From NCBI RefSeq assembly GCF_017565705.1, contig NZ_JAGDYL010000008.1, positions 62,001-126,000 on the forward strand: a stretch of 64,000 nt of DNA, read 5' to 3'. Both the position numbers and the translations under genes were made by a program. This document shows, in pieces, positions 27,067-35,829 of the stretch; position 1 is the stretch's first letter; each line of letters opens with the position of its first letter. This stretch comes from Leucobacter ruminantium (GTDB lineage Bacteria > Actinomycetota > Actinomycetes > Actinomycetales > Microbacteriaceae). The notes under the pieces are model-generated. The model saw nothing but the letters and a program-made list of their open reading frames with translations, did not search any database and was not told where the DNA came from.

Positions 27067-27076
27067 AGATGGTTCG

Positions 27077-27150
27077 CGCGCCCCGAGGGATTCGAACCCC
27101 CGACCTTCTGATCCGTAGTCAGATGCTCTATCCAGCTGAGCTAGGGGCGC
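27077..27150 (-). tRNA. tRNA-Arg(ACG)
   Basis: Read on the minus strand, GCGCCCC (5' acceptor) pairs with GGGGCGC. A D-arm with AGCTCAGCTGGATAGAGC, anticodon stem TCTGA/TCAGA with loop CTACGGA (anticodon ACG), and T-arm GGGGGTTCGAATCCC all fold canonically. CCA is not encoded. A 25-nt identical piece of this gene recurs inside menC (35162-35186). Confidence 0.95.
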
Positions 27151-34401: not shown

Positions 34402-34500
34402 TCGCGGCCCGCGGCGCGCGTGGCGGGCGCGGCGGGCGCGTGGCGGGGTCGTGCGTGGCCGAGGCCCGCGTCCGGCTGCAGTCCGCATGAACACCTTGGG

Positions 34501-34579
34501 CGAACGAACACGGCGGGGGCGAACGAACACCGCGGGGAGCTCTCCCCGGGGCTTCTCTCACGCCCGCCGTGTTCGTTCG
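34501..34579. terminator. inverted repeats between convergent metE-like gene and menC
   Basis: CGAACGAACACGGCGGG (34501-34517) is repeated in near-identical direct form at 34520-34537 and in perfect inverted form at 34563-34579, inside the last codons of menC. A smaller hairpin, CGGGGAG-CT-CTCCCCG, lies between. The alternative pairings could terminate both converging transcripts. Confidence 0.5.
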
Positions 34580-35829
34580 GCGAGGAGCGCGTGGCAGCGT
34601 GTCACGCGCTCCCGCCACCAGCGCTCCCGCTCGGGCGGGGCCGCGTAGCGGTCGAGCAGGGCCGGGGCGAGGGCCGGTCTCTCGACAGGGATCCCCCCGC
34701 GCTCGGGCAGCAGCGACCGGGCGGTGATGTCGCCGTCGAGCAGCGCCACAGTTCCGAGCCCGCAGGCACCCGCGAGTAGACGATCGGGCAGCGCCGCCGC
34801 GAGGTGCAACCCCATCGAGATGCCCACCGAGGTGTCGAGCGCACTCGACACGACCACCGGCAGCCCGGCGCGCTCCACGATGTCGAGCGCTCGGCGGATT
34901 CCGCCGAGCGGCTGCGCCTTGACCACGAGCAGGTCGGCAGCCCCCGCCCGTGCGACGGCGAGGGGGTCGGCGGCCCTGCGCACGCTCTCGTCGGCGGCGA
35001 TGCGCACGATGGGCGAACGGTCTGTCGATCCTCGGATCTCGGTCGCGCCGTCGGCCGCGGCGAGCTGACGATCTGAACCTGCGACCCCGTCGTCCCGAAC
35101 GACGCGCGCGCTACCCTCGGCCGATGCCTTGCTCGAGTCTCCCGTAGCGGGCTTCACGCTGTTCGAACCCCCGACCTTCTGATCCGGAGTCGGACCCGGA
35201 ACGGACAGCCGCGCGCGCAGCTCCGCGAGTTCGGCCACCGTCGCGCACGGCTGCTCGGCGTAGTCCAGGTCGAAGCCGGAGAGCGCGCGCAGCGCGGTCA
35301 CGGCCTCGTCGATCGTCCAACCGCCGTTCGCATCGACGCGCACTCTCGCATCTGGCCCCATCGCCTCGCGCACCTCGCGCACCCGGGCCAGGTCGTCGGC
35401 GATGGACTGGCCGCGTTCCGCGACCTTCACCTTCGCGGTGCGGCATCCGGGAAAGCGCGCCAGGATCTTGCGCACCTCCTCGGCGGGGACGGCTGGAACC
35501 GTCGCGTTCACCTCGATGCGGTCGCGCAGCTGGGGTGGCTGCTCGTGCCAGCCGAAGTCGAGCGCCGCCTCCAGCCAGGCCGCGGCCTCGGTGTCGTCGT
35601 ACTCGGGGAACGGCGAGAACTCGCTTGCGCCGAGCGGCGCCTCGAAGATCGCGGCCTCGCGCACGGCGACGCCGCGGAAGCGGGTGCGGGTGGGGATCGC
35701 GACCACCCGCATGGCTGCGAGCACATCTGCGAGCGGAGGGATCCCTCGCGGCTGTTCGAGCAGAGGGATCCCTCGCGGCTGTTCGAGCAGAGGGATCCCT
35801 CGCCGCTCGCTCGCCTGCCCACCGCCCAT
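34558..35829 (-). CDS. menC: o-succinylbenzoate synthase with an insertion and repeat-extended N-terminus
   Basis: An enolase-superfamily dehydratase of menaquinone synthesis. Core motifs: TRFRGVAVREAAIFEAPLG, GCRTAKVKVAERGQS (catalytic Lys region), RVRVDANGGWTIDEAV, YAEQPCATVAELAELR and IAADESVRRAADPLAVARAG. From the ATG at 35829 it has 423 residues, about 60-90 more than expected. Two additions explain this: a Gly-Ile-Pro-rich N-terminal repeat encoded by tandem 27-bp units, and about 62 residues between LSVP and IVRIAADES (about 35015-35200) that include a tRNA-Arg-like segment. The start is uncertain; ATG 35712 would drop PPLADVL, which homologues usually have. Confidence 0.8.
   Translation of the reverse strand: MGGGQASERRGIPLLEQPRGIPLLEQPRGIPPLADVLAAMRVVAIPTRTRFRGVAVREAAIFEAPLGASEFSPFPEYDDTEAAAWLEAALDFGWHEQPPQLRDRIEVNATVPAVPAEEVRKILARFPGCRTAKVKVAERGQSIADDLARVREVREAMGPDARVRVDANGGWTIDEAVTALRALSGFDLDYAEQPCATVAELAELRARLSVPGPTPDQKVGGSNSVKPATGDSSKASAEGSARVVRDDGVAGSDRQLAAADGATEIRGSTDRSPIVRIAADESVRRAADPLAVARAGAADLLVVKAQPLGGIRRALDIVERAGLPVVVSSALDTSVGISMGLHLAAALPDRLLAGACGLGTVALLDGDITARSLLPERGGIPVERPALAPALLDRYAAPPERERWWRERVTRCHALLAERTRRA
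35015..35204. repeat. in-frame insertion of about 186 bp in menC carrying a tRNA-Arg fragment
   Basis: Family alignment predicts LSVP followed directly by IVRIAADES. Here 62 extra codons intervene. Positions 35162-35186 are identical over 25 nt to 27091-27115 of the tRNA-Arg(ACG) gene (anticodon-stem 3' side, variable loop, T-stem), with four more matches after one mismatch. GAACGG occurs at both edges (35015-35020 and 35199-35204). The reading frame is intact. Confidence 0.6.
35736..35805. repeat. 27-bp tandem repeat in the menC 5' region
   Basis: Two identical 27-bp units lie at 35736-35762 and 35763-35789, followed by a partial third (35790-35804). Each begins with the palindrome GAGGGATCCCTC and ends with GGCTGTTCGAGCA. 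In the menC frame they encode RGIPLLEQP repeats; 27 is a multiple of three, so copy-number changes keep the frame. Confidence 0.85.

Follow-up and report, generated by a model that had tools for sequence, protein, structure and literature searches.

Pieces of tRNA sequence recur in one in-frame, length-variable loop of menC in Leucobacter

Introduction

Rickettsia palindromic elements insert in frame into protein genes, and in short-patch double illegitimate recombination, described in Acinetobacter, a short segment of the genome is copied, with microhomology, to a place that is unlinked to it. To our knowledge, known events of the latter kind are neither tRNA-specific nor bound to a single gene. 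For fragments of tRNA that lie outside tRNA genes, two origins, integration and CRISPR, have been described (PMC9897764).

Here we describe tRNA-derived sequence within menC, the gene for o-succinylbenzoate synthase, in Leucobacter ruminantium (a stretch of 64,000 nucleotides, hereafter the window) and in other members of its genus. The locus resembles Rickettsia palindromic elements in that in-frame DNA lies where a housekeeping protein has a tolerant loop, but it is one locus with a resident tRNA source, and a dispersed repeat family was not seen. With short-patch double illegitimate recombination it would share the copying of short segments with microhomology, and it differs from it by the tRNA source and the single gene. 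The tRNA fragments at the attL and attR ends of integrative elements are similar in being short copies of tRNA sequence away from the tRNA genes, in involving several of the same tRNAs and in having a 5' edge near the anticodon stem; the menC pieces, in contrast, are internal to the tRNA at both edges, lie in frame within a gene, occur in both orientations, come from many donors and accompany no element (PMC9897764). In the same paper one CRISPR spacer derives from a tRNA gene, again some 30 nt of tRNA sequence away from its gene (PMC9897764), but menC lies in no array and the smallest inserts are too short to include a duplication of repeat length, so we rejected CRISPR-type integration. A tRNA hot spot of this kind was not reported in the literature searched, which consisted of titles and abstracts with thin coverage of subscription journals.

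Results

The window menC lies on the reverse strand (34558..35712; ATG at 35712, stop at 34558, reading frame open upstream to 35997) and encodes a protein of 384 residues that matches the o-succinylbenzoate synthase profile NF002782 (E 9e-128) with 425.9 bits, above the curated cut-off of 288, and the Thermobifida fusca MenC structure 2OPJ with E 9e-79. The residues K94, K96, D127, E153, D241 and K265, the KxK, D, E, D and K positions which we take to be catalytic, are invariant in 25 of 25 aligned rows. The alignment to 2OPJ breaks between SVP and IAADES, where the window protein is longer by 65 residues; its loop, measured between YAEQP and AADES, has 83 residues against 19-23 in unexpanded Leucobacter loops, or 60-64 more. 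The extra in-frame segment proposed in the preliminary description is thus real, at 60-65 residues between those motifs in comparison with 2OPJ and relatives, and corresponds to about 63 codons at 35008..35196 on the reverse strand. In a structure model built from 25 sequences the mean pLDDT is 87.9 and most blocks outside the loop reach 95-98, while residues 182-186 and 188-230 fall below 50. The extra segment is therefore predicted from the model to be a disordered loop running from the helix that ends at residue 170 to the strand that starts at 237, and MenC keeps its catalytic residues and, in the model, its fold despite the insert. Contamination or assembly error was rejected as the source of such inserts, which are also present in two single-contig genomes (G005, G017).

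Both flanks of the gene carry repeats. Just upstream of the start, at 35730-35807, lies a 27-bp tandem repeat of 2.9 copies with the palindrome GGGATCCCTC, whose would-be peptide has relatives at several other places in the genome, and in the intergenic stretch downstream (34489-34537) units resembling GGGCGAACGAACACC form a short tandem repeat.

Two stretches of the segment, both on the reverse strand, are tRNA-derived. The 25-nt identity to tRNA-Arg(ACG) that had been noted previously, in the same orientation, holds and extends to 31/33 nt (35162..35194), corresponding to bases 28-60 (positions 27-59) of the resident gene at 27076..27150 on the reverse strand (ARAGORN; Rfam RF00005). The second stretch, at 35070..35109 and absent from the preliminary description, matches 38/40 nt of tRNA-Pro(CGG), bases 23-62 (positions 22-61) of a resident gene (G000:C14:1847-1921, G000 being the window genome). 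The E-values are 1.7e-7, in the whole genome, for the Arg match and 2.7e-11 for the Pro match. In 464 kb of the window genome, made up of 20 sampled 20-kb stretches and the window with tRNA genes masked, the two menC stretches scored 58.3 and 47.3 bits; the next match scored 31.6 and the reversed-sequence control 37.9. Matches with E <= 0.001 in this genome, among the 40 of 148 candidates scored, comprised only the two tRNA genes and menC. As a donor, tRNA-Arg(CCG) was rejected: the score of its gene is 17, that of Arg-ACG 28. We likewise rejected the idea that the insert as a whole came from a phage or plasmid: of the 13 phage and 32 plasmid records with a match, not one spans 80% of it, and the matches listed (12 of 13 and 12 of 32) all fall on the two tRNA stretches, three of the plasmid matches extending by some bases.

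We searched 54 Leucobacter genomes and could read the MenC loop in 52. In G068 no MenC match better than E 5e-4 was found, and in G072 the gene is split over two contig ends, with no insert seen by eye. The loop has 19-23 residues in 36/52 genomes and is expanded to 27-83 residues in 16/52. That the insert might be ancestral in all close relatives, the outcome named beforehand as contrary to an insertion, is not what the menC alignment shows: the insert differs between species. Scored against 92 tRNA sequences, with the tRNA sets of the other genomes partial, 8 of the 16 expanded loops (111-279 nt) reach 17.5-37; the best of 207 control windows of 150 nt from flanking menC sequence reached 14.5 and the best of 36 unexpanded loops 12.5. 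The other expanded loops (G022, G075, G074, G065, G029, G030, G010 and G026) score 10-13, at the level of the controls. A decayed relationship of the loops of G026 and G030 to the antisense piece of G008 and G017 was a likeness by eye only and was not counted. Low-complexity inserts also occur in other MenC loops, before YAEQP in G064 (L143) and near the C-terminal part in G069 (L153); with best tRNA scores of 9.0 and 9.5, these are not tRNA-derived by the scoring test.

Across the family, a MenC query matched in 298 of 299 genomes. Among the matches listed, no insert of such size was found outside Leucobacter in the 299 genomes surveyed, although the survey takes the best-scoring matches and weak-scoring genomes of other genera could still carry inserts. 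The longest spans among these matches, for 133 residues, were 423 nt (G005), 405 nt (G122) and 402 nt (G126 and G195).

By best match, six tRNAs served as donors: Arg-ACG, Pro-CGG, Pro-GGG and Lys-CTT in sense orientation, and Arg-TCT, Met-CAT and Lys-CTT in antisense. Apart from the window genome with its sense Arg-ACG and Pro-CGG pieces, two pieces each are found in G071 (Pro-GGG and Pro-CGG, both sense), G036 (Pro-GGG sense, Lys-CTT antisense) and G017 (Lys-CTT sense, Met-CAT antisense), and one each in G008 (Met-CAT antisense), G005 (Lys-CTT sense), G007 (Arg-TCT antisense) and G066 (Arg-ACG sense). In three genomes (G036, G005 and G007) the resident tRNA differs from the usual form in the genus, and in 3/3 the insert matches the resident form. 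The G036 insert agrees with its own tRNA-Pro(GGG) at 40/42 nt, 36 of them in an exact run, including that tRNA's own CTTGA/TCAAG stem, and scores 37 against 32 for the window version. The G007 insert agrees with its own tRNA-Arg(TCT) at 32/33 nt in antisense, with 30 nt exact (score 30.5 versus 22.5), and the G005 insert with its own tRNA-Lys(CTT) at 28/28, against a score of 23 for the window version. The antisense Lys-CTT piece of G036 (24/27) scores 19.5 with the resident variant and 16.5 with the G005 type. The resident tRNAs of G017, G008 and G066 are uninformative on this point, and the G071 comparison was made without its Pro-GGG gene. Since the inserts track resident variants, at least several of the captures or overwritings are young and local.

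All 12 segments lie inside tRNA bases 22-63 (indices 21-63), with 3' limits at bases 50-63. Random placement would give this with p 5e-9 for the 12 segments and p 9e-6 for six segments from five genomes and five donors, values to be read with the range having been picked after the data were seen and the segments being partly dependent. The eight sense pieces share one reading frame, in which the variable-loop triplet GTC, GTG or GTT encodes Val and is followed by x-G-S in 6/8. In four of these eight (G066, G017, G036 and G071) a menC Leu codon, CTG or TTG, coincides with the CTG or TTG of the anticodon stem; the remaining four show no such coincidence.

Interior tRNA pieces were not found outside menC in the 0.88 Mb sampled (464 kb of the window genome and 417 kb of G005 and G017), and a dispersed palindromic insert element was rejected in the same samples, which hold no above-control interior copies outside menC. 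In the 417 kb, which include the menC loci, only two copies outside menC exceed the control (31.6). These are att-like copies of tRNA-Val(CAC), bases 27-74, in G005 (L251:2979-3026) and of tRNA-Phe(GAA), bases 29-74, in G017 (L266:1704-1749), each probably the end of an integrative element. Across 599 kb of loci, a set biased to the neighbourhoods of tRNA genes and menC, the matches outside menC that exceeded the 37.9-bit control were a mimic of tRNA-Pro(GGG) (L030) and tRNA genes truncated by the ends of the loci; weaker ones include a Gly-CCC copy reaching base 74 (L017, 36.3 bits). A search of 60 genomes, with at most 13 candidates scored per genome, returned short interior matches to the Pro stretch, the best in G021 (28/32 nt, 39.4 bits); those of G021 and G001 read as ordinary coding sequence and were taken as chance rather than as tRNA pieces.

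The tRNA-Pro(GGG) mimic is a feature of its own. In many Leucobacter, one or two units lie just upstream of tRNA-Pro(GGG) (L030 at G000:C11:39778-39933, L196-L202 and L208). Over the first 40-49 bases they are almost the same as the tRNA, the T arm is altered, and a different 3' part can pair with the acceptor strand. The stretches from G036 and G005 showed no such unit.

Discussion

We propose that resident tRNA sequence has been copied repeatedly, in short patches, into one acceptor site in menC, a reading that in our judgement stands about evenly between being right and wrong. The recurrence at this one loop is best read as site-specific within Leucobacter. The acceptor would be the MenC loop that joins the helix following YAEQP to the strand VRIAADES, and the interior of a resident tRNA, bases 22-63, would be copied there time and again in either orientation, with the tRNA gene or the tRNA itself as the putative template of short-patch copying. 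Copying may start by microhomology between CTGA of the anticodon stem and the CTGAGC or TTGAGC of the likely empty site, with CC or CTCG at the right edge; these junctions were read by eye from diverged species. Each event would be either a fresh insertion or the overwriting of an older tRNA-like insert, and selection would retain only products with an open, unshifted frame, the loop being tolerant of changes in length. That such inserts are tolerated would be explained by the predicted disorder of the loop and the preserved frame.

In support of repeated copying are the multiple donors at a single site, the match to resident variants, the in-frame state of the pieces and their near absence elsewhere in the samples. 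Against it, ordinary microhomology-driven copying would not favour menC or tRNAs, and half of the expanded loops (8/16) hold no tRNA sequence above the control. The candidate machinery is not common to the carriers. In a tally in which some genomes are incomplete, Ku is encoded by 16/54 genomes, among the eight tRNA-bearing ones only by the window genome (24636-25166, forward strand), G007 and G017, and is missing from two genomes that are 99% complete, G005 and G008; RVT_1 is found in 8/54, among the eight only in G007 and G008. Ku end joining, absent from 5/8 carriers, and an RVT_1 reverse transcriptase, absent from 6/8, were therefore rejected as requirements.

A second explanation is integrase-related capture, in which off-target recombination left attachment cores in menC, as scars or as decoys, the cores being attB or attP of phages or integrative elements that use tRNA genes. 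Copies of Arg-ACG, Pro-CGG, Lys-CTT and Pro-GGG, which are all of the sense donors, that reach the tRNA 3' end exist in the genus, and these tRNAs therefore look like attachment sites. Several menC pieces begin at position 27. So does the tRNA-Arg identity in a stretch of Corynebacterium phage Poushou that carries no annotation and looks, by its sequence, like an attP, and the G005 Val-CAC copy likewise starts at base 27. The anticodon loop CTCCGGA of the window Arg piece recurs in an att-like copy of G044, from another genus of the same order. However, att-like copies in the genus extend from the anticodon region as far as the 3' end of the tRNA (bases 73-75), whereas the menC pieces end within the T arm or T loop. 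The pieces have several donors and both orientations, neither an element nor a second att copy was found in the window genome (40 of 148 candidates scored), and a scar origin would require in-frame loss of the element every time. We hold this explanation doubtful. The preliminary description had offered a scar of a tRNA-targeting integrative element beside a tRNA-derived insertion. The in-frame insertion is well supported; the scar is not, since interior pieces were seen only in menC in our samples and the other copies reach the tRNA 3' end.

It is also conceivable that a single founder insert arose in the Leucobacter ancestor, was lost in most lineages and was overwritten elsewhere by resident tRNAs through gene conversion, with no fresh insertion. 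In 9 of the 16 expanded loops P-L-V adjoins RI, with three more one residue off. This common tail could signal one founder with later losses, although it would equally fit a constant right junction. The similar boundaries of the inserts and the nearly identical register of the antisense pieces of G007, G008 and G017 point the same way, as do some short, unexpanded loops (G025, G031) that adjoin expanded ones in a tree of MenC alone, computed without the loop. On that tree, however, insert presence requires at least seven changes, so a founder would demand many losses, and at about 35 nt the pieces are short for conversion by homology between one tRNA and another. A single clade of 15 insert-bearing rows (the 16 without G075) is rejected, with a log-likelihood difference of 108.8 (p 2e-7), which may still be compatible with one old founder followed by many losses. 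Overall, we judge this history unlikely.

Bolder than repeated copying, and in our estimation improbable, is the idea that an active process writes the anticodon-to-T-loop core of tRNAs into the one menC site, the products serving as decoy att sites against tRNA-targeting mobile elements or arising as a side effect of RNA-templated repair or of a recombinase acting there. Selection for tRNA likeness itself, with the menC mRNA mimicking a tRNA or being targeted by an enzyme that cleaves or modifies tRNA, would suit the exact match to resident variants in some genomes but is hardly credible given the antisense pieces, the different tRNAs, the 36/52 loops without an insert and the lack of a clear folding excess in four pieces (z -1.85, 0.02, -1.05 and 0.91).

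The menC loop offers a natural case in which noncoding RNA sequence becomes protein sequence repeatedly at one place. With the donors known and some events seemingly recent, the mutational mechanism is directly testable on sequences from several strains within a species. An involvement of integrases would make the loop a new fate of attachment cores; a template role of the tRNA itself would make it evidence that bacterial genomes can be changed from an RNA template where no RVT_1 reverse transcriptase is present. Should an active writing process prove true, the sequence of the MenC loop in these Leucobacter would be recycled tRNA.
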